A stretch of 25,430 nt of DNA from a virus, in IMG/VR virus record IMGVR_UViG_3300031276_000014, positions 1-25,430 of that record. One strand, given 5' to 3'. Made by a program: the position numbers and the translations under genes. Positions 374 through 20,779 of the stretch are shown one piece after another. Under the pieces are notes generated by a model. That model worked only from the letters and a program-made list of their open reading frames with translations. It searched no databases and was not told the DNA's origin. Numbering within the stretch: position 1 is the stretch's first letter; each line of letters starts with the position of its first letter.

Positions 374-613
374 TTATTGTTGGCGGTCGCCATTTTCGCA
401 GTTTATGAACACGTACTGCGGGACGCGGTAGCACGTCATCGTCGGAACTGCCGGCCATGTCCATGGCGGCGCCTGATTGACGTGCACCTTCTTTCTAGGG
501 ATGACTTTCGCGTTCGCGAACAACCAGCATTCCCCGTCGATCGAGTTGCCCGGTTTGTTATAATGGTCGTTGTAACACCCGGCGCACATTTTCTTGCTTT
601 TTTCTTTTGCCAT
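374..613 (-). CDS. Small Cys-rich phage protein, possible metal binder
   Basis: A 79-residue protein of unknown function. It opens with a Lys-rich stretch, then has CAGCYNDHYN near residues 10 to 18 and further cysteines in the middle (ECWLF, MTCYR) and near the end (INCEN). This pattern is compatible with one zinc site, but that is inference. The segment around RKKVHVNQAPPW resembles small early proteins seen in other phages, without a named function. The ATG is supported by GGAAGGA seven bases upstream. It stops 10 bases before the DUF6166-like gene. Its leader contains the repeated hairpin element described separately at 629 to 757, so its translation may be controlled by RNA structure. 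Confidence 0.75.
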   Translation of the reverse strand: MAKEKSKKMCAGCYNDHYNKPGNSIDGECWLFANAKVIPRKKVHVNQAPPWTWPAVPTMTCYRVPQYVFINCENGDRQQ

Positions 614-628
614 ATGTTTGTCCTTCCC

Positions 629-757
629 GAGCCTTCGGCTCTTGCTGCGCTCGACGCTTAGACGATTGTAATGGGGCCAGTCGTCGAAACCCCATGCCGA
701 TTCGCACGGCGCACTATGTCGAGCGCAGCAGGAGCCGCCCCGGTAATGCGGGGCGGC
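629..757 (-). promoter_or_regulatory. Structured leader RNA element, copy A
   Basis: Read on the minus strand, the leader of the gene starting at 613 has three parts. First is a 9-bp GC hairpin with a six-base loop (757 to 734). Second is a 20-bp inverted repeat with one mismatch, arms 737 to 718 and 655 to 636, enclosing 62 bases with an inner ATGGGG/CCCCAT stem. Third is a short hairpin GAGCC-GAA-GGCTC (641 to 629) just before the Shine-Dalgarno. GAGCC can pair with the upstream arm or with the downstream GGCTC, so the last two structures exclude each other. The same layout recurs at 2563 to 2681. The structure is seen in the sequence; a regulatory role is inferred. Confidence 0.6.
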
Positions 758-763
758 CGATGG

Positions 764-949
764 TCATCCTGCGACTTTATTTCCGTCGGCGACCAATTTC
801 TTCTTCAGGTCTGCGATCGCAGCGACGAGTTCGGTGTTCACCATCTTGTGATCGACTTCCGTCTCGTCAACGTACTCCACAGTGACGTCGACCTGGAACG
901 TTCCATTCGCGAGCTGCTTCGCATTGGCCCTCACTCTTTTCTCAGGCAT
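764..949 (-). CDS. Small hypothetical protein
   Basis: A 61-residue protein, MPEKRVRANA at the start, followed by a beta-like TFQVDVTVEYVDE segment and a helical tail (LVAAIADLKKKL). I do not recognise a family. The ATG at 949 is chosen over the upstream in-frame extension because AGAGAGG lies three bases before it, and because the extension would translate a hairpin leader and a perfect palindrome. It is the distal gene before leader copy A; a 9-bp GC hairpin begins seven bases after its stop. It lies between other small unknown early genes, and its role cannot be deduced. Confidence 0.65.
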   Translation of the reverse strand: MPEKRVRANAKQLANGTFQVDVTVEYVDETEVDHKMVNTELVAAIADLKKKLVADGNKVAG

Positions 950-964
950 AAAGCCTCTCTTTCT

Positions 965-978
965 GAGCCTTTCGGCTC
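965..978 (-). promoter_or_regulatory. RBS-proximal hairpin GAGCC-GAAA-GGCTC
   Basis: A 5-bp stem with a GAAA (GNRA-type) loop on the minus strand, ending six bases before the AGAGAGG Shine-Dalgarno of the gene starting at 949. It belongs to the same short hairpin family as those at 629, 2563, 3522 and, in reduced form, 5797. Confidence 0.5.
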
Positions 979-1044
979 CGGAGACGGGGAGAGGTGGCGA
1001 GGGTAGATTCGCTGCGCCATTTCGCCCCTTCCCGCCCGCGGAGA

Positions 1045-1064
1045 CGTCCCCCTGCAGGGGGACG
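1045..1064. repeat. Perfect 20-bp palindrome between two genes
   Basis: CGTCCCCC-TGCA-GGGGGACG is a perfect palindrome of 20 bases, seven bases after the stop codon of the gene ending at 1072. As RNA it gives an 8-bp stem with a four-base loop. No T-run follows on the minus strand, so a classical intrinsic terminator is unlikely; an mRNA 3'-end stabiliser, a processing site or a protein-binding site are alternatives. Confidence 0.6.
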
Positions 1065-1071
1065 CTCATTC

Positions 1072-1386
1072 TCAGTGATGTGGATCTCCTTTCACCATTT
1101 GGTTGATCCTGTTGACCACTTCCGGTGGAAGACGTTTTCTTGCGATCAGCGCGCGGTGCGCCGACATGAAACCCTTCACTGCAAGGTACAACAGAAAACC
1201 ATGGTCCGCGCTGTTCTCGAGCAGGCTCAGGATCGCCTCACAGTAGTCGTGGTTGCCCGAGATCAGGCGCTCGACCGTCTGCCAAAATTGATCGGTCTTC
1301 GGGTCGCTTACGTTGAACCTGTCGCTTACGCCCTTCCCCTTCGGGTCGTAGGTGAACCGGATCGTAACTTCTTTTTCTTCGTTCAT
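1072..1386 (-). CDS. Hypothetical early phage protein
   Basis: A 104-residue protein. The N-terminal 40 residues look beta-rich (EVTIRFTYDPKGKG, then DRFNVSDPKTDQFW) and the C-terminal half looks helical with basic residues (RALIARKRLPPEVVNRINQM). I do not recognise the family. The ATG is preceded by GAAGGGG and overlaps the stop codon of the 44-codon gene upstream (ATGA at 1383 to 1386), indicating translational coupling in a three-gene string: the DUF932 gene, the small gene, then this one. It is followed by the perfect palindrome at 1045. Confidence 0.75.
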   Translation of the reverse strand: MNEEKEVTIRFTYDPKGKGVSDRFNVSDPKTDQFWQTVERLISGNHDYCEAILSLLENSADHGFLLYLAVKGFMSAHRALIARKRLPPEVVNRINQMVKGDPHH

Positions 1387-1517
1387 GTTGCCCCTTCTTC
1401 CTCATCCGATTCGGTTATGATTTCGCAGAGCTTCGCAGGGTCAAAAGGAAAGGCCACCTCTTCGGTGGCCTCCCTCTGCGTTTTTTGCTCTTCGATGTAC
1501 TTGTCGAGCCAGCTCAT
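1383..1517 (-). CDS. Small acidic protein gene linked by ATGA overlaps
   Basis: A 44-residue ORF beginning MSWLDKYIEEQ and ending in a very acidic tail (ESDEEEGAT). Both ends overlap their neighbours by ATGA: its start overlaps the stop of the DUF932 gene, and its stop overlaps the start of the next gene. The fit of both junctions, and a gap of otherwise unexplained length, support a real coupled gene. No strong Shine-Dalgarno is visible, consistent with coupling. The coding sequence contains an 8-bp hairpin (1451 to 1471) followed on the minus strand by TTCCTTTT, which looks terminator-like. Function unknown; a short acidic phage protein could be an anti-host factor, but nothing in the sequence proves it. 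Confidence 0.6.
   Translation of the reverse strand: MSWLDKYIEEQKTQREATEEVAFPFDPAKLCEIITESDEEEGAT
1451..1471 (-). terminator. Terminator-like hairpin inside the 44-codon gene
   Basis: AGGCCACC and GGTGGCCT form an 8-bp stem around a five-base loop. On the minus strand it is followed by a pyrimidine-rich TTCCTTTT stretch. Being inside a translated frame, it would act only when translation stalls or is uncoupled; it may equally be incidental. Confidence 0.3.
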
Positions 1518-2548
1518 GCCGCGACGTCTTTCCATTCGGTCGCGTGCTGGACGATGTCATCGCCCGCCTTCTCGAACTCAAATTGCTTGTCGCGATCCTC
1601 GGTGGAGTGCGCGAGCGCGGTGACCGCATTCGCCAGGTTCCACACCGTCCCACCTTCCTTGACCAGGTTGTTCAGGATCGCATCACCATCCTCGTCGGTG
1701 AATGAATAGTGCCGCGTGACTTCCTCGACAGTCGCTTTCACGTCTTCAACTTCCAGGCCCGCGGCTTTCTTCATCTGTATCAGTGAATTGGCGAAAGCCG
1801 CTTCACTGACCGCGCCCGCCATGACGTCGCGCAATCTGAGCTGAAAACTCTTGAGCTCCGCTTGGATGGTATCGCTCTTGTACACGTCGTAGTCCTCGGG
1901 GCTTTCCCCGATCTTGCGCCCGACGTGCCGGCGCCGCATGATGCTTTCCCCGACCATTCCATTCAGGCAGCGCAGCCGCCAGAACGATGTCAGGATGTCA
2001 ACTGCCCCCTGGCCGGTTTCTGAGTTGGTGAGCGTGATACCGGACTGAACGATGTCACCCTTCGTCACCTCGCCCTGGATCCTTGGGAAGAAGACCTGGA
2101 CGTAGAGCCGTGACTCCGTCAGGGCGATCGCGTTGACTGATACCTCACCAAGCCCTTTCAAGACGGGAAGGAATGCGTTCATGATCAAGATGTTGTCGAT
2201 CGGTTTGAACTTGTCGCTGAGGATCGCCCGGACGTCTTTCGCCAGGGTCCTGACCATGTGCTTCTCCTCACTCTTTTGGAGCCAGGCATTGACGTTCTCG
2301 GACCTGAGACCCGGGACCGCAACCATCCGGTCGTAGTAATTTTTCGGGATGCCGAGCTTCGTCGCGAGCTGGGAGTGCGTGTTCGCGTTCACCCGCCAGT
2401 CGCCTTTGAGTTTTACCGTGTCCACTGCGATGATCTCGTCATCGCGCATGGTGAGGTCCTTCGCCGGTACGATGAAGTCCCGTTTCTGTGCGTCGAGCTG
2501 AAGGAGTTGTTCCTTCAAGTCATCGATCGTTTTCAGTGTTCCTTGCAT
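1514..2548 (-). CDS. DUF932 family phage protein
   Basis: A 344-residue protein recognised as DUF932 (the phage/plasmid-like TIGR03299-type family). Visible hallmarks are the N-terminal DLTMRDDEIIAV region, the THSQLATKLGIPKNYYDRM helix, RAILSDKFKPIDN in the middle, and the conserved TLTNSETGQGAVDI followed by FWRLRCLNGM. The C-terminal 100 residues are helical and charged. DUF932 proteins are widespread on phages and plasmids and lack an agreed function; a role in DNA metabolism is often guessed from context, and here an SSB gene lies in the same block. The ATG at 2548 is chosen over upstream in-frame starts because AAGGAGG lies five bases before it and the longer frame would translate the structured leader. 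Its stop overlaps the next small gene. Confidence 0.85.
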   Translation of the reverse strand: MQGTLKTIDDLKEQLLQLDAQKRDFIVPAKDLTMRDDEIIAVDTVKLKGDWRVNANTHSQLATKLGIPKNYYDRMVAVPGLRSENVNAWLQKSEEKHMVRTLAKDVRAILSDKFKPIDNILIMNAFLPVLKGLGEVSVNAIALTESRLYVQVFFPRIQGEVTKGDIVQSGITLTNSETGQGAVDILTSFWRLRCLNGMVGESIMRRRHVGRKIGESPEDYDVYKSDTIQAELKSFQLRLRDVMAGAVSEAAFANSLIQMKKAAGLEVEDVKATVEEVTRHYSFTDEDGDAILNNLVKEGGTVWNLANAVTALAHSTEDRDKQFEFEKAGDDIVQHATEWKDVAA

Positions 2549-2562
2549 AGTAGCCTCCTTGT

Positions 2563-2681
2563 GAGCCATTCGGCTCTTGCTGCGTTCTTTCAGCCGCATG
2601 GACTGTAACCGGTGCACCGGTATAACGTGCTTGGTTTCGCCATCGTAAAGAACGCAGCAGGAGCCGCCGTCGATGACGGCG
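2563..2681 (-). promoter_or_regulatory. Structured leader RNA element, copy B
   Basis: The leader of the DUF932 gene repeats the layout of copy A. On the minus strand there is a 7-bp hairpin CGCCGTC-ATC-GACGGCG (2681 to 2665), a 20-bp inverted repeat with one mismatch (arms 2666 to 2647 and 2590 to 2571), and a short hairpin GAGCC-GAAT-GGCTC (2576 to 2563) two bases before AAGGAGG. The 56-base interior contains the perfect palindrome ACCGGTGCACCGGT. The outer part of the arms is the same as in copy A, but the inner six base pairs differ in a compensatory way, which argues for a selected RNA stem. A switch between long stem and short hairpin is inferred. Confidence 0.65.
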
Positions 2682-2703
2682 ACCCTTAGCACAATACACG
2701 CAA

Positions 2704-2716
2704 GGGCCAACGGCCC
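2704..2716 (-). other. Small GC hairpin after the stop at 2725
   Basis: GGGCC-AAC-GGCCC forms a 5-bp stem eight bases past the stop codon of the gene ending at 2725. No T-run follows, so it is not a clear terminator; it continues the pattern of a GC hairpin after each early stop codon. Confidence 0.35.
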
Positions 2717-2724
2717 AGTCTGAT

Positions 2725-2904
2725 TTAATAAACTTTCGCCATCGTCTTGATTTCCTTCTCGAGGCGGGCGATGCGCTTCGCCTCCTCCGGGACGTCCGGC
2801 TCATCATAGTCGAGAACCTCAACCTCGATATTGCGGATCAGGGAACAATGGACGGATTGAATCGTCCCGCCTCGATTTACGACAATAATTTTCACGTTCT
2901 CCAT
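2725..2904 (-). CDS. Small hypothetical protein
   Basis: A 59-residue protein starting MENVKIIVVNRGG, with a beta-like first half, an acidic middle (DYDEPDVPEEAK) and a basic helical end (RIARLEKEIKTMAKVY). No family recognised. Two in-frame ATGs lie two codons apart. The second, at 2904, is preferred because AAGGAG sits six bases before it, whereas the first ATG follows the AAGGAG immediately. The first ATG forms an ATGA overlap with the stop of the tentative small gene upstream. Leader copy B follows downstream. Confidence 0.65.
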   Translation of the reverse strand: MENVKIIVVNRGGTIQSVHCSLIRNIEVEVLDYDEPDVPEEAKRIARLEKEIKTMAKVY

Positions 2905-2906
2905 AA

Positions 2907-3023
2907 TCATCTCCTTCCCGTAAAACTTCCGAGAAGACGGACGATGCCATGGATCATTCTTGCCTCAATCTCCATGGTCGTCCGCTCCCTCGGCGGTTTG
3001 ACGCCGATCACTTCATGGGCCAC
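2907..3023 (-). CDS. Tentative small basic protein (GTG start)
   Basis: A 38-residue ORF fills the gap between the beta-barrel-like gene and the gene starting at 2904. The product starts MAHEVIGVKPPRERTT and ends MIHGIVRLLGSFTGRR. The composition looks protein-like and basic, and its stop overlaps the next gene's first ATG (ATGA). The weak point is the start: GTG lies almost directly on the AAGGGG motif. An internal ATG at 2975, with GAGGGAG upstream, would give a 22-residue form. No function can be suggested. Confidence 0.4.
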   Translation of the reverse strand: MAHEVIGVKPPRERTTMEIEARMIHGIVRLLGSFTGRR

Positions 3024-3030
3024 CCCCTTC

Positions 3031-3510
3031 TCAGAAAAGCAGCACGCTTCCCTTGAAGCTGATGTAGAGCTGATTGTATCCGCCCTCGAACATTACGTCT
3101 CCGGAACCGTCCAGAGCAAGGAATGGCATGACCGGGTGGTAACAGAAATGCCGGAAACCGATCTCAAGGCCGCCGAGCCTGATGCCCGCGTTCAGCCCGT
3201 AGTACATTTCCGACGGGGAAAATGACGGCAGACCCTCGTAGGTCAGGGCCGACATGTCGACCTGCATACTGCCGCCGACGAAGAACAGGAAGGGATTGAG
3301 AACCTCGAGCACAACCTCGGCCTTCATCGTGGCGTAGAAGTCCAGCCCCTGGCCGGTGTATCTCGTGGTATGGATGATCCACTCATTCCCCGGGAGCCAG
3401 CCGATTTCCATCTCATAGTTGAAACGGAGGATGCCGGTCTCCTTCTTTTCCTGAGCGAATGACGTCGCCGCCGCAAGGGCGAGGATCGCTGCTAAAAATA
3501 GCTTTTTCAT
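3031..3510 (-). CDS. Secreted, outer-membrane beta-barrel-like protein
   Basis: A 159-residue protein with a clear Sec signal peptide: MKK, a hydrophobic core, and a probable cleavage after SFA at residue 19. The mature part alternates polar and aromatic/hydrophobic residues as in beta strands (ILRFNYEMEIGW, LDFYATMKAEVVLEV, MYYGLNAGIRLGGLEIGFRHF, YNQLYISFKGSVLLF). It ends in phenylalanine, with hydrophobic residues at alternating positions before it, like a BAM-recognised outer membrane signal. An 8-strand-like small barrel or periplasmic beta protein is inferred. In an early phage block such a protein could modify the host surface, for instance in superinfection exclusion, but this is unproven. 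The start has GGAGGC before it, next to a GAGCC hairpin. The Sec signal and barrel suggest a diderm host. Confidence 0.7.
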   Translation of the reverse strand: MKKLFLAAILALAAATSFAQEKKETGILRFNYEMEIGWLPGNEWIIHTTRYTGQGLDFYATMKAEVVLEVLNPFLFFVGGSMQVDMSALTYEGLPSFSPSEMYYGLNAGIRLGGLEIGFRHFCYHPVMPFLALDGSGDVMFEGGYNQLYISFKGSVLLF

Positions 3511-3521
3511 AAAATGCCTCC

Positions 3522-3629
3522 GAGCCTTTTCGGCTCCGGCTGCGCCCCCCTCGGTCGCCTCGCTCTTGTAGTTACGGATTTACGGGGTTCCTTTGGGAGG
3601 GCGCATTCAGAGACGGCCGGCGCACCGGC
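3522..3629 (-). promoter_or_regulatory. Structured leader RNA element, divergent copy C
   Basis: Upstream of the secreted protein the same order of parts appears. On the minus strand there is a hairpin GCCGG-TGCG-CCGGC (3629 to 3616), then a 10-bp stem with one G-U pair (arms 3605 to 3596 and 3550 to 3541) around 45 bases, then CGCAGC directly before GAGCC-GAAAA-GGCTC (3536 to 3522), then GGAGGC. The 3' strand matches copies A and B (CGCAGC, two variable bases, GAGCCGAA), but the outer end of the long stem pairs poorly here. I treat it as a diverged member. Confidence 0.45.
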
Positions 3630-3742
3630 TGGCTCTCGGTTTCTGGATTGCGGGATCATACTTTTTGGGATCGAGCTGCCCCTCGCGAGGAGCGCATGGA
3701 CCGCGAATTACTCTGACGTCGCGTCCACAAGTATTAGATAAA
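3630..3742. other. Unassigned part of the 309-base gap 3511 to 3819
   Basis: This middle part of the gap holds no convincing gene on either strand, no tRNA and no repeat that I can see. The gap as a whole is otherwise occupied by leader copy C (3522 to 3629) and the large hairpin pair at 3743 to 3806. Confidence 0.5.
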
Positions 3743-3806
3743 GGCCCGCGGACCGGTCGGTGTCAGGTGACAATCGACCGGCCCGTGGGCCGCCGCCGAC
3801 GGCGGC
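3743..3806 (-). terminator. Large hairpin pair after the stop at 3820, terminator candidate
   Basis: Two structures follow the stop codon at 3820. The first is GCCGCC-GTC-GGCGGC (3806 to 3792). The second is a large imperfect inverted repeat (arms 3743 to 3765 and 3768 to 3791) with only two loop bases: a block of about 17 pairs with one mismatch and one G-U pair, an internal loop, then a 5-bp tip TGTCA/TGACA. On the minus strand the long stem is followed directly by TTTATC, giving a moderate intrinsic terminator. The fold is seen; termination is inferred. Confidence 0.5.
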
Positions 3807-3819
3807 AGCCCGGAGGCAA

Positions 3820-4143
3820 TTATCGGCGGCCTCCCTTGTCAGGAGCCGCGTCTGTTTCTGTCTCAGTGAGGTCGTCAAGTGCTACGCCCCTTTGCAGTGC
3901 GATTTTATCCAACGCGTCCAGAACGATCCGGTCGGCGTTGTCCTGACCGATCGAGCGCGCGAGGGCGGTGATGTCTACCGGCACCGTCACACCGATCGGC
4001 GCGATCGGCTCTCCCCATTCCGTGATGGAGTAGAGGACGCCGTCGCCTTCGACGTCGACGTAGTTTATCCCGGTGGCGGTGTCATTCCAGACGTCCCTGC
4101 TCCACTCATCGGAGCCGATCTTTTTGAAGTCTTTTTTGTTCAT
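3820..4143 (-). CDS. Hypothetical early phage protein
   Basis: A 107-residue acidic protein starting MNKKDFKKIGSDEWSRD. The first 50 residues look beta-rich (GINYVDVEGDGVLYSITEWG); a PVDITALARSIGQDNADRIVLDALDKIAL helix-rich segment follows, and the tail is charged (DDLTETETDAAPDKGGRR). I do not recognise the family. The start overlaps the stop of the preceding 45-codon gene (ATGA at 4140 to 4143), so the two are probably translated in a coupled way. The large hairpin pair downstream probably marks the end of this small transcript segment. Confidence 0.7.
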   Translation of the reverse strand: MNKKDFKKIGSDEWSRDVWNDTATGINYVDVEGDGVLYSITEWGEPIAPIGVTVPVDITALARSIGQDNADRIVLDALDKIALQRGVALDDLTETETDAAPDKGGRR

Positions 4144-4277
4144 GATTTCCTCTTTTCAAAAATGAAATAAACTTTTTCCCATCCATCCCAATATTGGACC
4201 TCCAGGAAGGATATCCATTTTGATAATTTTTTCCATAAGCGTACTTTTTTTCTATCTCCTCGAATTAGGATTTTCAT
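4140..4277 (-). CDS. Small basic aromatic protein
   Basis: A 45-residue protein rich in Lys/Arg and aromatic residues: MKILIRGDRKKVRLWKK at the start and KVYFIFEKRKS at the end, with WISFLEVQYWDGW in between. The ATG at 4277 is chosen because GGGGAGGC lies before it. A longer in-frame reading from 4472 would overlap the upstream gene and translate the hairpin leader. The local AT content is visibly higher than in its neighbours, suggesting a different origin. It could be a nucleic-acid-binding or host-directed peptide, but there is no family match I can name. Its stop overlaps the next start by ATGA. Confidence 0.6.
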   Translation of the reverse strand: MKILIRGDRKKVRLWKKLSKWISFLEVQYWDGWEKVYFIFEKRKS

Positions 4278-4288
4278 AAATGCCTCCC

Positions 4289-4326
4289 CGGTCTGAATGA
4301 CCGCCTCGCGGCCCCGTAGGGCCGCG
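4289..4326 (-). promoter_or_regulatory. Two-hairpin leader with UNCG-type loop
   Basis: On the minus strand there is an 8-bp hairpin CGCGGCCC-TACG-GGGCCGCG (4326 to 4307), then a 5-bp hairpin CGGTC-ATTCA-GACCG (4303 to 4289) directly before GGGGAGGC and the ATG at 4277. The C(TACG)G loop fits the very stable UNCG tetraloop class. The same two-part layout occurs at 4989 to 5031 and 5199 to 5240. Confidence 0.5.
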
Positions 4327-4392
4327 CCGTAGTAGTTCAGGTCGGAGATCTTGTTGTCCCCATGGTGCGCCTGATCAGGGCGCCAGGGACCT

Positions 4393-4626
4393 TTAATTTC
4401 TGATCTCCTCAAGGAACTGGATCCCGCCGATGACCCGGTCGAGTTCAGTCTCCGCCCGCTGCTCCGTAGCATAGGAATTGTTCCATTTCACGTTGTCGCG
4501 CGCGTCCGTGTTCAGGGTCCTGGTCTGAGCCTTCCTCAGTTTGGTGATCGCGTTGATGAGCATCGCGCATCCGGGACAGCCTTTCGTCGGGAGAAGTTTT
4601 TCTTCATTCACTTTTTTTTGATTCAT
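4393..4626 (-). CDS. Hypothetical protein with CPGC motif
   Basis: A 77-residue, mostly helical charged protein. Its only marked feature is GCPGCAMLI near residue 17, a CxxC-type pair that could bind metal or be redox active. Only one such pair is present, so a zinc site would need a partner molecule. The start overlaps the last 23 bases of the SSB gene in another frame, with AAGGAAG upstream, so the two genes are co-expressed and perhaps functionally linked to single-stranded DNA handling; that link is inference. A hairpin leader follows downstream before the next gene. Confidence 0.65.
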   Translation of the reverse strand: MNQKKVNEEKLLPTKGCPGCAMLINAITKLRKAQTRTLNTDARDNVKWNNSYATEQRAETELDRVIGGIQFLEEIRN

Positions 4627-4975
4627 GATTTTCTTCCTTTCTTACTTCTGGTTTGAAAATGACGTGGTCAGCGACGATGTAGACCTTGGAATGTATTTTC
4701 CCTTTGGGTCCTTCCCAACGGTCTTGCTTCAGCCTGCCGATGATGCGCACACCGCGACCCTTCTTCAGATTACTGGCGCAGTTATTTGCGAGTTCAGTCA
4801 AAGCAGTGATGTCGAAAAAAGAAACCTCTTTTTGAAATTCGTCATTCAGTTTTTCTCTGATGAACCGATTCGATGCAACTGAAAATGTGCACACTGCCGT
4901 TCCATCAGTCGTGTGACTGAGTTCAGGGTTTTTCACCAATTTTCCTTCGATGAGAACCTGATTCAAGTTGTTCAT
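4604..4975 (-). CDS. ssb: Single-stranded DNA-binding protein
   Basis: A 123-residue SSB with an OB fold over about residues 1 to 110. Diagnostic features are the opening NLNQVLIEGKLVKNPELSHT, the CTFSVASNRFIRE strand, the FFDITALTELANNCASNLKKG segment and VRIIGRLKQDRWE. It would coat single-stranded phage DNA during replication or recombination. It is shorter than the bacterial protein. The tail after residue 110 is basic and mixed (RKEENHESKKSE), and it lacks the acidic DDDIPF-like tip through which cellular SSBs recruit partner proteins. The start is supported by CAGGAGGC. A two-hairpin leader (4989 to 5031) precedes it. Confidence 0.93.
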   Translation of the reverse strand: MNNLNQVLIEGKLVKNPELSHTTDGTAVCTFSVASNRFIREKLNDEFQKEVSFFDITALTELANNCASNLKKGRGVRIIGRLKQDRWEGPKGKIHSKVYIVADHVIFKPEVRKEENHESKKSE

Positions 4976-4988
4976 AAATTGCCTCCTG

Positions 4989-5031
4989 ACCGCCGGTGTT
5001 CGGCGGTTCCTCTCCGGCCCCGCAGGGCCGG
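4989..5031 (-). promoter_or_regulatory. Two-hairpin leader of the SSB gene
   Basis: On the minus strand there is CCGGCCC-TGCG-GGGCCGG (5031 to 5014), then ACCGCCG-AACAC-CGGCGGT (5007 to 4989), abutting CAGGAGGC. The first stem has a UNCG-class loop like those at 4307 and 5223. A 7-bp stem directly before the Shine-Dalgarno could affect ribosome access or protect an RNA 5' end. Confidence 0.5.
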
Positions 5032-5038
5032 GAAGGAA

Positions 5039-5185
5039 TTAAAATCCGATGTCTTCCGCATCCTCGAGTTCTGTAATCAATCCATCGTGATCCTCATTCG
5101 GTCCTAAAGCATCTGCTAAGACATATACTTTAGAACCATACACCTCTGCCAAACCGTCAAGATATTCTTGCCGTTCCTTCGTCAT
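5039..5185 (-). CDS. Small acidic protein
   Basis: A 48-residue protein, MTKERQEYLDGLAEVYGS at the start and ELEDAEDIGF at the end, with VYVLADALGPNEDHDGLI between. It is strongly acidic in its second half. The ATG has AAAGGGGA upstream and a GCAA-loop hairpin before that, and the frame exactly fills the gap between two structured leaders. No family is recognised. A small acidic phage protein next to SSB could mimic nucleic acid or modulate a host enzyme; the sequence does not establish this. Confidence 0.6.
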   Translation of the reverse strand: MTKERQEYLDGLAEVYGSKVYVLADALGPNEDHDGLITELEDAEDIGF

Positions 5186-5198
5186 AAAATCCCCTTTC

Positions 5199-5240
5199 CA
5201 CCTGTTGCCAGATGTTTCCCCTCGCGCCCCGTAGGGCGCG
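5199..5240 (-). promoter_or_regulatory. Two-hairpin leader with UNCG and GNRA loops
   Basis: On the minus strand there is CGCGCCC-TACG-GGGCGCG (5240 to 5223), then CATCTG-GCAA-CAGGTG (5214 to 5199, one G-U pair), followed by the Shine-Dalgarno of the 48-residue gene. It has the same layout as the leaders at 4289 and 4989. Confidence 0.45.
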
Positions 5241-5248
5241 GAAGGAAA

Positions 5249-5596
5249 TCAGTTTAATGTCAGTTCTTTGTGATAATGAGCGATGCTGTCTTCAGCAGCC
5301 AGGACCATCATTTTCCAGTTGGTCAGATCGTATCCGGCCGAAAGTATTTCATCGCGGAAATAATAAAAGGGAATTGCCCAATCGCAATCTTCTTCCCAGT
5401 AGGTCCATGATCTCAGGAAGTTCACCACGTTCGGGCACAACTTCTTGAGTTGGGCCGCATGTTTTCGGTCAAGCCAGATTCCGCCGTGTCCTGGTGTCGA
5501 TAAAGACCAGATGCCATCGGAGTACTTTTTCTTCCAGTCGACGTGCCCCCAGGGGGAATTGTCGGGCGGGCTGACGATCGTTCTGATGTTGTTCAT
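5249..5596 (-). CDS. Hypothetical protein resembling DUF7007
   Basis: A 115-residue protein with a recognisable string: SLSTPGHGGIWLDRKHA near residues 31 to 47, then SWTYWEEDCDWAIPFYYF near residues 64 to 81. The combination of an STPGHGG block and a tyrosine/tryptophan-EEDC-W block recalls the DUF7007 type of phage and plasmid proteins, which have no known activity. The paired His, Cys and acidic residues might form an active or metal site, but this is inference. The start overlaps the upstream stop by ATGA, so it is coupled to the 63-residue gene before it. The assignment is from memory of the motif only. Confidence 0.65.
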   Translation of the reverse strand: MNNIRTIVSPPDNSPWGHVDWKKKYSDGIWSLSTPGHGGIWLDRKHAAQLKKLCPNVVNFLRSWTYWEEDCDWAIPFYYFRDEILSAGYDLTNWKMMVLAAEDSIAHYHKELTLN

Positions 5597-5784
5597 GATG
5601 TGATCCTTTCCACGAAGATTTTTTTTCCGTCCTTCGCTTTGTATGCGTAATAGCCGACTGCCTTCAGGCATTTCAGTCTTAACATCGTGTGCCCGTTCGG
5701 GTTCACAATGAATTCGGTTGCTGCCTGTTTTTCGGTCATGGTCTCGACTCGATCGGCCAGGGCCTTAATTTTAAATCTTGTCAT
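5593..5784 (-). CDS. Small basic hypothetical protein
   Basis: A 63-residue basic protein, MTRFKIKALADRVETM at the start, then AATEFIVNPNGHTMLRLKCLKAVGYYAYKAKDGKKIFVERITS. The beta-rich basic second half would fit a small nucleic-acid or protein-binding fold, without a family match. The ATG at 5784 has GAGGAGGC upstream and a reduced GCC-GAAA-GGC hairpin before that. The longer in-frame reading from 5925 would translate the hairpin leader and is rejected. Its stop overlaps the next start by ATGA. Confidence 0.65.
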   Translation of the reverse strand: MTRFKIKALADRVETMTEKQAATEFIVNPNGHTMLRLKCLKAVGYYAYKAKDGKKIFVERITS

Positions 5785-5796
5785 AATTGCCTCCTC

Positions 5797-5857
5797 GCCT
5801 TTCGGCTCTCTCATCCCTCCCGATGCCCCCGGCGCCGGCGGGTCGCCCCGCCGCATC
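5797..5857 (-). promoter_or_regulatory. Hairpin leader between the genes at 5861 and 5784
   Basis: On the minus strand a two-tier hairpin comes first: outer GATGC/GCATC (5857 to 5853 with 5826 to 5822) enclosing GGCGGG-GCGA-CCCGCC (5852 to 5837), a GNRA-type loop. A short GCC-GAAA-GGC hairpin (5806 to 5797) follows and lies against GAGGAGGC. It has the same overall plan as the other early leaders. Confidence 0.45.
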
Positions 5858-5860
5858 GCG

Positions 5861-6052
5861 TCAGAAACCAAAAAGCTTTTTTGATTCTTGAAATCCGACC
5901 CATCGCCCATCGGCGTTCTGTCCACGGTTCGCCAGTTCTTTTTTGGCGAGCCTGAAGACGTCGATTTTCCCGAGGACGATGTCGCTCAGCAGTTTCGTGT
6001 TCGTCCCGCTGAATATGTATTCCGGATTTAAAGTGTCTTTCAGATTGCTCAT
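5861..6052 (-). CDS. Small hypothetical protein, first clear early gene
   Basis: A 63-residue protein, MSNLKDTLNPEYIFSGTNTK at the start, then LLSDIVLGKIDVFRLAKKELANRG and a QNADGRWVGFQESKKLFGF tail. The helix LSDIVLGKIDVFRLAKKELANRG followed by DGRWVGF is shared in style by many small phage proteins of unknown role. The ATG at 6052 is taken as the start; the upstream extension would translate a leader with hairpins. The Shine-Dalgarno (GGGGGG) is weak. It is the first well-supported gene downstream of the putative early promoter near 6270. Confidence 0.65.
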   Translation of the reverse strand: MSNLKDTLNPEYIFSGTNTKLLSDIVLGKIDVFRLAKKELANRGQNADGRWVGFQESKKLFGF

Positions 6053-6104
6053 TTTTGTTGCCCCCCGCGCCTGAGCGCCGGGAGCATCGGATAAGGATGG
6101 AAGA

Positions 6105-6126
6105 GCCGGACAATTGCTTGCCCGGC
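6105..6126 (-). promoter_or_regulatory. 9-bp hairpin with GCAA loop in the early leader
   Basis: GCCGGGCAA and TTGTCCGGC on the minus strand pair over nine positions, including one G-U, around a GCAA (GNRA) loop. It lies about 50 bases upstream of the gene starting at 6052. No T-run follows. Confidence 0.45.
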
Positions 6127-6131
6127 GCCAT

Positions 6132-6254
6132 CTACTTTTTCGGCTTCCCTTGCGGTATCGCGTCACCCCCGACGCTCGCCCCCCTGATTCCCCTTCTCAA
6201 TCGCCGATTTTTCTTTCCGGGTTTCCCCGTACTCCGTACCGGCTCGCTCAACAT
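6132..6254 (-). CDS. Tentative small basic protein next to early promoter
   Basis: A 40-residue ORF, MLSEPVRSTGKPGKKNRRLR at the start and ending DAIPQGKPKK, with about a third Lys/Arg. The ATG is preceded by TAGGA at a suitable distance and lies about 15 bases downstream of the -10 element, so it would be the first frame on the early transcript. Composition would suit a nucleic-acid-binding peptide. Against it, the leader would be very short, GC-rich DNA readily yields Arg-rich chance frames, and no family is known. I keep it as a candidate. Confidence 0.3.
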   Translation of the reverse strand: MLSEPVRSTGKPGKKNRRLRRGIRGASVGGDAIPQGKPKK

Positions 6255-6268
6255 TTTGTCCTACTTAT

Positions 6269-6297
6269 AATATATACTATTAGTATAATAATAGCAA
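6269..6297 (-). promoter_or_regulatory. Putative early sigma70-like promoter
   Basis: On the minus strand, -35 TTGCTA (6297 to 6292) and -10 TATATT (6274 to 6269) are separated by exactly 17 bases, in the only strongly AT-rich intergenic stretch of the window. It points toward the early genes and follows the late-block terminator. The match is 4 of 6 and 5 of 6 to consensus. Confidence 0.55.
6273..6287. promoter_or_regulatory. 15-bp palindrome in the promoter spacer, operator candidate
   Basis: TATACTA-T-TAGTATA is a perfect inverted repeat of 7-base arms around one base. It covers most of the spacer and touches the -10 of the putative early promoter, a classic repressor position. The repressor gene itself is not in the window. 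Confidence 0.45.
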
Positions 6298-6309
6298 CAT
6301 ATTTCGGGG

Positions 6310-6370
6310 TTTATTCTCTGATTTTAAGCGTGGATTTATTCCCCATTTTGGCCTGAATTTATTCCTATTT
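6310..6370. repeat. Three direct repeats upstream of early promoter
   Basis: TTTATTC occurs at 6310, 6335 and 6358, each followed within two to four bases by ATTTT. On the minus strand each unit reads AAAAT, a short purine-rich gap, then GAATAAA. Spacing of 25 and 23 bases is close to two helical turns. They lie just upstream of the -35, so they could be activator or repressor sites, or origin iterons. Confidence 0.5.
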
Positions 6371-6372
6371 TC

Positions 6373-6387
6373 GGGGTGGGGGTGGGG
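6373..6387 (+). other. Three G-runs
   Basis: Runs of four, five and four G separated by single T bases. With only three long runs a four-tetrad quadruplex cannot form, though a two-tetrad fold is possible. Reported as a compositional feature of the control region. Confidence 0.3.
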
Positions 6388-6460
6388 AATTATGCTGGAA
6401 AGGCCGAAAAGCCCCGTCCTGGCCCGCCTCGCAAGGCTGAGGGGGTATTTTAAAGTCGTC

Positions 6461-6491
6461 AGACAAACCGACCGGGGTTTCCCCCGGCCGG
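6461..6491 (-). terminator. Intrinsic terminator of the late block
   Basis: On the minus strand CCGGCCGGGG and CCCCGGTCGG form a 10-bp stem with one G-U pair and a GAAA loop (6491 to 6468), followed by TTTGTCT. It lies about 40 bases after the last late stop codon at 6530, exactly where the structural and lysis transcript should end. Confidence 0.75.
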
Positions 6492-6508
6492 ATAAAATGG
6501 AGGTTCTC

Positions 6509-6522
6509 CCTGCTTTCGCAGG
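6509..6522 (-). other. CCTGC-GAAA-GCAGG hairpin after the last late gene
   Basis: A 5-bp stem with a GAAA loop begins eight bases after the stop codon at 6530, ahead of the main terminator. It may protect the 3' end of the late mRNA. Confidence 0.4.
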
Positions 6523-6529
6523 AAGGCCG

Positions 6530-6940
6530 TCAATTGTTCAGGTAGATGACCAGGCGGATCACCCCTGAACCGGCCATGGCGACGCCGCCGATGATCGATC
6601 CCGGGTCCGCCTTGAATATCCCGTAAATGAGCAGTCCGATCCCGACGAGGGGCACGCCGATCCAGACGAGGGTGTTCTCCAGCTGCAGGCCGCGGAGTTC
6701 GGCCTGGAACGTCGCGATGTAATTCGCGAACCGTGCGTCATTCTCAGCGATGAGTTGCGCCCGTAATGCCTGCCACTTCGCGTTGAATATTTCGCCATAC
6801 CCGTAGATCAGGTCAATGACTTCCGCTCTGCTGTAGGTATCTTGTGAGGGCAGCGCGGAGTTGATCTCGTCCTTCGTCAAAAGCTGTGCCGATGCCGGCA
6901 CTGCCAGAGTTAAGAGAAGCAACATTGCCAGTATTCGCAT
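6530..6940 (-). CDS. Signal-peptide protein with two C-terminal membrane helices
   Basis: A 136-residue protein. Residues 1 to 18 form a Sec-type signal peptide ending PASA, with Q next. The middle (about 20 to 88) is a soluble helical segment with NAKWQALRAQLIAENDARF. Two membrane helices follow at about 90 to 109 and 115 to 133. It is the last gene of the late block, after holin-like and endolysin genes, so a lysis role (spanin-like or antiholin-like) is plausible. It does not match a classical spanin: there is no lipobox cysteine. Its first 128 bases overlap the end of the preceding gene in a different frame. Start supported by GAGAGG five bases upstream. Confidence 0.7.
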   Translation of the reverse strand: MRILAMLLLLTLAVPASAQLLTKDEINSALPSQDTYSRAEVIDLIYGYGEIFNAKWQALRAQLIAENDARFANYIATFQAELRGLQLENTLVWIGVPLVGIGLLIYGIFKADPGSIIGGVAMAGSGVIRLVIYLNN

Positions 6941-18955: not shown

Positions 18956-20779
18956 TCAGCTTCTCAGCAGGATGCCGACGCCGATCCGGATCGATCCTCC
19001 AGGGGCCGGGAACGAGAAGTGCGTATCCAGGTTCCTTTCCCCGTCGTCAATCTTGTCCTGCGGATTATTGGTGATGTCGGCCTTGACCTCGAAATGCTCT
19101 TCAGGTTTCGTGGCCGATCCATCGGCATGGACGCCCTGGCCGAATGTCTCTCCGATTGGAACGCTTCCGGTACTCCCTTTGTTCCAAAGTTCATATAGGA
19201 ACCCGAGGATCGCCATCCGGTCGCTTTGGATGCGTCCGAGAGAATTTGGCGTGTTCTCCGCATCCTGCAGGGAGTCCTTAGCGGATACTTTGATAAACTC
19301 CCTCATCAAAATGCCGTTGGCGAACTTGAATTCTTTTGCGATCGACGGGGTGAAAAAATTGCGTACGACGATTCCGTATCCGGTCAAGTCTTGCAGGACG
19401 TTGATCCCGGCCTCCGCGAGCTCGGTCCTGTCGATGTCGCTCAGGAACGTGTCGCCGACCAGAGAGTTGAAGCCGTAGATCGGGTTCGTCTTGACCGCCG
19501 GAATAAAGTGTACGCCGTTGATCCCGATGCTTCGGATCCAGTTCCCCATGATGTGCCCGACGTTCGGGACCTCGCGGTCGGGGGATAGGGGTGACGTTCC
19601 GAACGGGTCCGTGACCTTCCCCCAGTTTGCGACATTCACCTGGAGGACGTCGTTGCTTCGCTGGAAGTTCTGCCCGATCGTTATGAGCTGCGCCTTGGTC
19701 TGGTTGGCGGGAAGGTTGGCGACCACCTTCGGATTGTCATCCCTGGCCCGGGCGTAGGTTTCCATCGCCTTCTGTATCGCCTCGACAGTCGTTTCCGGGT
19801 TCGCAATAAACCGGACAGGCAAATTGTCGAGTCTGGTGAGCGCGTTATTCCAGTGAGCAGCGGTCGTCGGGGCAGTGCCGTCGGCACCGGCAGCAAGATA
19901 GGTGATCGTCGCAACGTCAATCGGGAAAGTCAGGTCGAGTGTCGCCGGCGTGGTTACGAGCCTGGTGACTGTCGCCCATTTGCTCGTGCTGAACACGTTC
20001 TGTACATAGAAGTCAGTGACCAGAGCCTCGGTCGTACAAAAGATTTTTCCGAGTTCGGTGTCAACTTCACTGACCACGCCCTTGGTGTCCTTGCGCCAGA
20101 TGCGGAGCCTGAACCCCGGGACGCTGACGATGTCGTCGAGCGCGAGCGTCGAGGTGGCGTGCAGCACCGAGTCGGTCCAGGTGATCGACTTGGCGCCCTC
20201 ATCGACGGCCGTAATTTTGTGGTATGCGGTCACAGGCGCGCCGCCAGTCAAAGCAAACTTGACGATGTCACCGACTTTGATTCCGATGACACTGTCCAGG
20301 AAACAGGTATAAGCGGATGCCAGGGCCGTGGCCGACGCGGCGGTCGTGAACCTGGTCCCGTTGGTGATCGTATATCCCGTTCGGTTCCCGCTGATTCCAT
20401 ATTCAAGTTCCCCTTGATACGCCGCATCGATCCGGATAACTGCCTCCGGAGTGCCATCGACTGGGGACGCTGTCGCGACGACTGCATCGATCGCGACGCC
20501 AGTGTGTCCGACATGCGAGCTCACATAGAGCTTAGCGTTCACCCCGACGACGTTATCGAAGAAACCTTTTACGGAATCCGGGCCGTAGAAGTTCGGGTCG
20601 ACGTGGCTCCCGAATATTTCCAAGAACTCCGTCGGGTTGTTGACCGCGAATGCTTTATTGAATTTGCGTTCAAACTTTCCGACGATTCCGCCGATCAAAA
20701 AATCGCTTGCGGTTACTGTCCTGCTTTTCTTGGTCGGCAAGCTTTCATTGTATACCCCGAGCCGTCTCATGTTCGGCAT
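18956..20779 (-). CDS. Contractile tail sheath protein
   Basis: A 607-residue sheath subunit that contracts to drive the tube into the host. The N-terminus (GVYNESLPTKKSRTVTASDF, IGGIVGKFERKFNKAF, NNPTEFLEIFGSHVDP) is typical. A beta-rich insertion at about 110 to 280 probably faces outward. The conserved C-terminal part includes IRSIGINGVHFIPAVKTNPI, then ELAEAGINVLQDLTGYGIVV and the helix region FANGILMREFIKVSAKDSLQ. The final GSIRIGVGILLR segment is the strand that links sheath subunits. It is long for a sheath, explained by the insertion. The start is supported by GAGGTG. It is the strongest marker of a contractile tail here. Confidence 0.92.
   Translation of the reverse strand: MPNMRRLGVYNESLPTKKSRTVTASDFLIGGIVGKFERKFNKAFAVNNPTEFLEIFGSHVDPNFYGPDSVKGFFDNVVGVNAKLYVSSHVGHTGVAIDAVVATASPVDGTPEAVIRIDAAYQGELEYGISGNRTGYTITNGTRFTTAASATALASAYTCFLDSVIGIKVGDIVKFALTGGAPVTAYHKITAVDEGAKSITWTDSVLHATSTLALDDIVSVPGFRLRIWRKDTKGVVSEVDTELGKIFCTTEALVTDFYVQNVFSTSKWATVTRLVTTPATLDLTFPIDVATITYLAAGADGTAPTTAAHWNNALTRLDNLPVRFIANPETTVEAIQKAMETYARARDDNPKVVANLPANQTKAQLITIGQNFQRSNDVLQVNVANWGKVTDPFGTSPLSPDREVPNVGHIMGNWIRSIGINGVHFIPAVKTNPIYGFNSLVGDTFLSDIDRTELAEAGINVLQDLTGYGIVVRNFFTPSIAKEFKFANGILMREFIKVSAKDSLQDAENTPNSLGRIQSDRMAILGFLYELWNKGSTGSVPIGETFGQGVHADGSATKPEEHFEVKADITNNPQDKIDDGERNLDTHFSFPAPGGSIRIGVGILLRS

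Follow-up and report, generated by a model that had tools for sequence, protein, structure and literature searches.

Two intercistronic inverted-repeat elements with compensatory changes in a virus record, tentatively read as mRNA-processing sites

Genes and features of the record

The window analyzed here is the whole of IMG/VR record IMGVR_UViG_3300031276_000014, a complete virus record (25,430 bases) whose minus strand carries most of the genes. A tail/baseplate block extends from about 7 to 25 kb, and Tail_P2_I and Phage_base_V domains were found there. One of the encoded proteins matches an annotated tail protein of Leptospira phages LE3 and LE4 at 36%, and from its size and place we read it as the sheath. 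The sheath-like protein at 18956-20779 shares 47 to 58% identity with those of a group of uncultured phages (L038, L039, L040, L041, L043, and L044; records of 22 to 66 kb); a more distant likeness (36%) extends to LE3/LE4. The block from 0 to 6.3 kb consists of small genes, including those for a DUF932 protein, an SSB, and a DUF7007 protein, a content that suggests an early block. The boundary between the two blocks is likely marked by a terminator-like hairpin on the minus strand (6468-6491, CCGGCCGGGGGAAACCCCGGTCGG with TTTGTCT) and a promoter-like site (6297-6269, TTGCTA-17-TATATT).

Two minus-strand genes of the small-gene block are each preceded by a structured element: a 79-aa gene (374-613) lies downstream of copy A, and the DUF932 gene (1514-2548) lies downstream of copy B. 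Close relatives of the DUF932 protein were absent from the viral and genome contigs, and the phage records gave only distant ones. Both elements have same-strand genes on both sides, and a scan found no promoter-like site at either of them, so they are more likely intercistronic than leaders, the term used in the preliminary description, which is probably wrong. A scan for intrinsic terminators, defined as a GC hairpin followed directly by a U-tract, gave 0 matches in copy A and only two marginal, mutually overlapping matches with interrupted T runs in copy B (2654-2669); in the region as a whole, 12 were found versus 8.1 expected.

Structure and statistics of copies A and B

Copy A (629-757, minus strand) and copy B (2563-2683, minus strand) are each built of three helices in the same order, namely, a hairpin near the upstream stop codon, a long stem, and a hairpin abutting the Shine-Dalgarno sequence. 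In copy A, positions 718-757 hold the stop-proximal GC hairpin (734-757, 9 bp) and the 5' arm of the long stem (718-737). They are followed by an enclosed region of 62 nt (656-717) and the 3' arm (636-655); the stem is perfect over 13 bp (643-655/718-730), after which come a C.A mismatch and the pairing of GGCTC with GAGCC. The GAGCC-GAA-GGCTC hairpin (629-641) then leads to the Shine-Dalgarno sequence GGAAGG of the 79-aa gene (622-627). Copy B repeats this plan, with a GC hairpin at about 2663-2683 and the 5' arm at 2647-2666 (together 2647-2683), an enclosed region of 56 nt (2591-2646), a 3' arm (2571-2590) with 13 perfect base pairs (2578-2590/2647-2659) and the same C.A mismatch, a GAGCC-GAAT-GGCTC hairpin (2563-2576), and the Shine-Dalgarno sequence AAGGAGG of the DUF932 gene (2554-2560). 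The arms (636-655/718-737 in A, 2571-2590/2647-2666 in B) are 20 nt long and 95% complementary in each copy.

Both structures are real and lie where they had been reported, and their long stems exceed those of all shuffled sequences. At 13 bp each, these stems are longer than any other perfect inverted repeat in the entire 25-kb record, the next being 11 bp. Among 300 shuffles per element, the longest stem never reached 13 bp (maxima of 10 and 9), and the folding energies were well below those of the shuffles (z of -5.1 for A and -4.5 for B).

The central claim of the preliminary description, that the inner six pairs differ between the copies and yet stay paired through at least four compensatory changes, holds in a hand alignment, in which 4 of the 13 pairs, all among the inner six, are changed on both sides (from A to B, C-G to U-A, G-C to U-A, A-U to U-A, and C-G to U-A). 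An automatic alignment counts just 2 double-sided changes because it splits the inner arm. The outer part of the stem is nearly identical, as had been described: A and B share the outer 7 pairs as well as the C.A mismatch that separates the 13-bp stem from the outer GGCTC/GAGCC pairs. The enclosed regions are alike only at chance level (local p of 0.28, global p of 0.13). The motif TTACA(A/G)TC, which had been pointed out in both copies, is indeed present in both, but we give it no weight because a similar shared 8-mer appears in 15% of shuffled pairs.

The existence of a paired element that has been kept up in both copies is well supported. The stronger claim, that selection for an RNA stem explains the changes, fared less well: pairing has been maintained, but matched changes could also arise from a DNA hairpin or from correction of one arm by the other through template switching, and the comparison is limited to two copies. 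The kept pairing, the kept mismatch, the common orientation, and the direct contact with the Shine-Dalgarno sequence indicate an RNA role, and A and B probably act as RNA.

The GAGCC of either copy has two potential partners, the upstream GGCTC, which lengthens the long stem, and the downstream GGCTC, which forms the end hairpin. The fold with three separate hairpins is predicted to be lower in energy by 1.2 kcal/mol in A and 3.1 kcal/mol in B. The Shine-Dalgarno sequence takes part in neither pairing, and the predicted ensemble leaves most of it unpaired; both points speak against simple sequestration. This is less clear for copy A, in which it is predicted to be partly to mostly single stranded and may in part form weak pairs with the far 5' end.

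Hairpins across the small-gene block

The end hairpin is more widespread than the long stem. The sequence GAGCC-GAA(N0-2)-GGCTC, with a loop of 3 to 5 nt, is found at four sites in the window (629, 965, 2563, and 3522), each just before a Shine-Dalgarno sequence, whereas its expected count from 100 shuffles is 0. The two additional sites define weak copies on the minus strand: copy C (3522-3629), with GAGCC-GAAAA-GGCTC (3522-3536) before the gene starting at 3510, and copy D (965-1066), with GAGCC-GAAA-GGCTC (965-978) before the gene starting at 949. Copy C, already named in the preliminary description, has the end hairpin in common with A and B, but its long stem is at chance level (7 bp perfect, equaled in 70 of 300 shuffles; z of -1.3), and copy D is like it in both respects. 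A covariance model built from A and B scored 146 bits on A, 135 on B, 22.5 on C, and 15.4 on D. A four-copy family with a common long stem was dropped because C and D have stems that do not exceed chance. The GAAAA pentaloop of copy C presumably recalls lambda boxB, a likeness not kept in A, B, or D.

A listing by eye of the gaps of 60 nt or more between same-strand genes below 5.3 kb gave eight. The gap at ~6.05 to 6.5 kb, above the first gene of the block, was excluded because of the terminator-like and promoter-like sites there. All eight gaps have a stop-proximal hairpin (perfect stem of at least 5 bp, starting at most 25 nt from the upstream stop), compared with a mean of 1.07 and a maximum of 5 in shuffles that preserve base composition only. 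A hairpin abutting the Shine-Dalgarno sequence (ending at most 23 nt from the start) is present in six of the eight (mean of 0.89 and maximum of 4 in the same kind of shuffles), and four of these six are GAGCC-GAA(N0-2)-GGCTC. A and B are the strongest case of this block-wide hairpin plan. The plan also occurs without the long stem, before the SSB gene starting at 4975 (4990-5030, minus strand; stop-proximal hairpin at 5015-5030, Shine-Dalgarno-proximal hairpin at 4990-5006) and before a small gene starting at 4277 (4289-4383, minus strand; 4367-4383 and 4289-4303, respectively). The small gene starting at 5186 is preceded by a gap with a stop-proximal hairpin of the CGCGCCC-UACG-GGGCGCG type (5224-5239, minus strand). 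The hairpins of the block mostly do not have U-tracts.

Several stop-proximal hairpins between 3.5 and 5.3 kb on the minus strand have UNCG-type cores (CCC-UACG-GGG or CCC-UGCG-GGG, at 4311, 5017, and 5226), with outer bases that differ and stay paired. At 3743-3815 on the same strand, a long imperfect hairpin (GGCCCACGGGCCGGTCG...CGACCGGTCCGCGGGCC) is followed by TTTATCT and stands directly after a GCCGCCGTCGGCGGC hairpin; it is possibly the terminator of the gene at 3820-4143.

In Leptospira phage LE4, stop-proximal hairpins are moderately enriched (5 of 10 gaps versus 1.4 expected), and Shine-Dalgarno-proximal hairpins are not (2 of 10 versus 1.05 expected).

Search for relatives

The preliminary description knew of no named RNA class with this plan, and no Rfam family reached its gathering threshold in the window; at lax thresholds, a search of positions 400 to 6600 gave weak matches only, with 0 on A or B. 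Pattern scans of the viral contigs with the arms or the end hairpin found no element like A or B. The matches to an arm pair, or to one arm plus the end hairpin, were judged to be chance, had no comparable inverted repeat, and were mostly inside open frames, as was an arm-pair match in L004/L006, which lies in a coding frame. The end hairpin together with a Shine-Dalgarno sequence was found at 34 loci in viral contigs, mostly inside long open frames, and 0 of them had the A/B structure. One pattern run against 84,980 species genomes returned no copy. In BLAST searches, copy A had no match in phage records; copy B hit an unrelated 30-mer and gave weaker matches, on plasmids only, and the 30-nt match, on a Rhodanobacter plasmid (E value of 8e-4), has no inverted repeat.

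The A/B covariance model was further run over 0.41 Mb that included six related phage records, reached via the sheath alignment. These relatives (L038 to L044, 47 to 58% identical in the sheath-like protein) are without long stems. A Zixibacteria locus scored 20 bits and proved to be only two hairpin copies ~600 bp apart, and 132 genomes from the Zixibacteria phylum gave no match to the model. The preliminary description had named covarying homologues upstream of varied early genes as support for a new RNA family. None was found in the viral contigs, phage records, genome sets, Rfam, or the six related phages, the outcome that it had itself named as counting against a family; the term RNA family is therefore unproven.

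Comparison with known systems

The pnp (PNPase) mRNA leader of E. coli is cut by RNase III. Jarrige et al. (2001, cited in PMC3997798) reportedly described how its double-stranded structure is handled by ribonucleases. A and B resemble it, by description and not by sequence, in having a double-stranded structure upstream of a gene, but the pnp leader belongs to a host autoregulatory system and is not a phage intercistronic repeat.

Another parallel is site R1.1 of phage T7, located between genes 1.0 and 1.1 (PMC6121014). Like it, A and B would be intercistronic in a phage message, with a long imperfect stem and an expectation of protected ends. Twelve base pairs are enough for single-strand cleavage by E. 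coli RNase III (PMC8708148), and an intercistronic stem of at least about that length in a polycistronic phage message is present here, with 13 bp plus 5 bp past the mismatch, if a single transcript spans the block. R1.1 differs in being ~60 nt long with an internal loop, whereas in A and B the region inside the stem already measures ~60 nt, and separate hairpins flank the stem.

The nearest named start-associated repeats are SAS and ESAS of cluster K mycobacteriophages. SAS is a 13-bp asymmetric sequence, GGGATAGGAGCCC, that overlaps the ribosome-binding site ahead of several nonstructural gene starts, with an inverted repeat just upstream in about half of the cases; this repeat, ESAS, has 17-bp arms and in most sites a spacer of 4 to 13 bp, and its arm differences do not support RNA pairing (PMC3203893). 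In contrast, the repeated sequence here is the GAGCC-GAA(N0-2)-GGCTC hairpin upstream of the Shine-Dalgarno sequence, and the arms of A and B are 20 nt long, with spacers of 62 and 56 nt and pairing kept through changes. The put RNAs of phage HK022 are about 70 nt long with two stem-loops, one RNA downstream of each early promoter (PMC9378689). putL and putR are, like A and B, a related pair of structured RNAs within a single phage genome, but A and B differ in size, helix number, and position; the two kinds are set apart by description, and the Rfam and phage-record searches gave no match.

Interpretation

We tentatively favor the reading that A and B are RNase III processing stations like those of T7 and that the hairpins on either side protect the mRNA ends so created. 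The small-gene block would be transcribed as one polycistronic message, with A and B as maturation elements within it. The long stem would be cut by a double-strand-specific ribonuclease, e.g., host RNase III, after which the stop-proximal hairpin would cap the upstream mRNA at its 3' end and the GAGCC-GAA-GGCTC hairpin would cap the new 5' end, leaving the Shine-Dalgarno sequence open. Emory et al. (1992, cited in PMC3997798) reportedly found that a 5'-terminal stem-loop can stabilize mRNA. The outcome would be that stability and dosage of the neighboring genes are uncoupled, as with the T7 RNase III sites.

Processing is favored by long stems above all shuffles, by the hairpins at eight of eight stops and six of eight Shine-Dalgarno sequences, by a Shine-Dalgarno sequence that is free in both pairings together with the lower energy of the three-hairpin fold, and by the lack of a promoter-like site at either copy. 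The order of 3' hairpin, long stem, 5' hairpin, and Shine-Dalgarno sequence also fits what cutting and protecting would need, with T7 R1.1 as a precedent. Against it, A and B have the same sequence in the outer 7 bp and at the mismatch, beyond the needs of a sequence-tolerant nuclease, although a recent duplication might account for this. A long stem of this kind is missing from the other gaps, where cutting would need another route, and LE4 shows the bracketed plan weakly at most.

The identical outer sequence, together with four GAGCC-GAA hairpins of identical stem, suggests sequence recognition, and A and B could instead be cis-regulatory RNAs, in which a phage protein or small ligand binds the end hairpin or the enclosed region and controls translation downstream, with GAGCC perhaps switching by branch migration between pairings that are within 1.2 to 3.1 kcal/mol of each other. 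We consider this rather unlikely, given a Shine-Dalgarno sequence outside both pairings, enclosed regions without a conserved aptamer core, and a loop of variable length; if it were nevertheless true, one phage protein could control several genes. It is likewise unlikely, in our view, that the elements act at the DNA level as a duplicated inverted repeat (a protein-binding or cruciform site, or a small nonautonomous mobile element) whose arms are kept alike by template-switch correction and which has no RNA role. The repeat does look like a pair of terminal inverted repeats, concerted correction of the arms is conceivable with only two copies, and the start-associated inverted repeats of cluster K mycobacteriophages were judged likelier to be DNA-binding sites (PMC3203893). 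However, the arms match within copies and differ between them, the C.A mismatch is kept in both, contrary to correction of whole arms, the orientation to the gene start is the same, and the flanking hairpins seem positioned to serve mRNA ends.

Chance, in the form of ordinary structure in GC-rich intergenic DNA together with a small duplication, would account for two copies in one record, for the stems of C and D, and for the failure to find homologues. We think this improbable, because 13-bp perfect stems with changed inner pairs occur in both copies above all shuffles, and hairpins are present at eight of eight gaps; the shuffles already make chance unlikely. Most doubtful of all is an antiterminator of the HK022 put kind, a folded nascent RNA that binds RNA polymerase and brings about read-through of the block hairpins. 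Two related structured copies in one phage, as in putL and putR, and many stable hairpins downstream would suit it, and copy A contains a -10-like TACAAT, reminiscent of the pause sequence of putL, which is likewise -10-like (PMC9378689); but the copies are 121 to 129 nt long with three helices, lie deep in the gene block, and directly abut the Shine-Dalgarno sequence, and the hairpins to be read through mostly do not have U-tracts.

To return to processing, A and B probably represent a variant form of an mRNA-maturation signal already known from phages. That they belong to a new phage scheme seems unlikely; in such a scheme, cistrons would be bracketed by stop-proximal and often Shine-Dalgarno-proximal hairpins, with a covarying stem like that of A and B at selected junctions, and the elements would form a new class of intercistronic maturation RNAs with relatives in unsampled phages. 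If the processing reading is true, a phage with tail genes related to those of LE3/LE4 independently uses the T7 trick, its message being cut into units that are hairpin capped at both ends, and the elements would provide compact parts for balancing the expression of genes in an operon.

Observations in other genomes

In L065 and L066 (record G008), several gene starts have a hairpin 1 to 5 nt before AAGGAG, at or just downstream of promoter-like sites of the TTGAC or TTGAT type, and the mRNA 5' end itself may there be a hairpin beside the Shine-Dalgarno sequence. In a Devosia nanyangense metagenome-assembled genome (L019, L023, and L026), two contigs together carry at least four copies of an intergenic repeat, GGGGAGGGTAGCGCAGCT(C/T)GAGCCGAAGGCTCGTAGCGAAGCTGGGGAGGGGGG.
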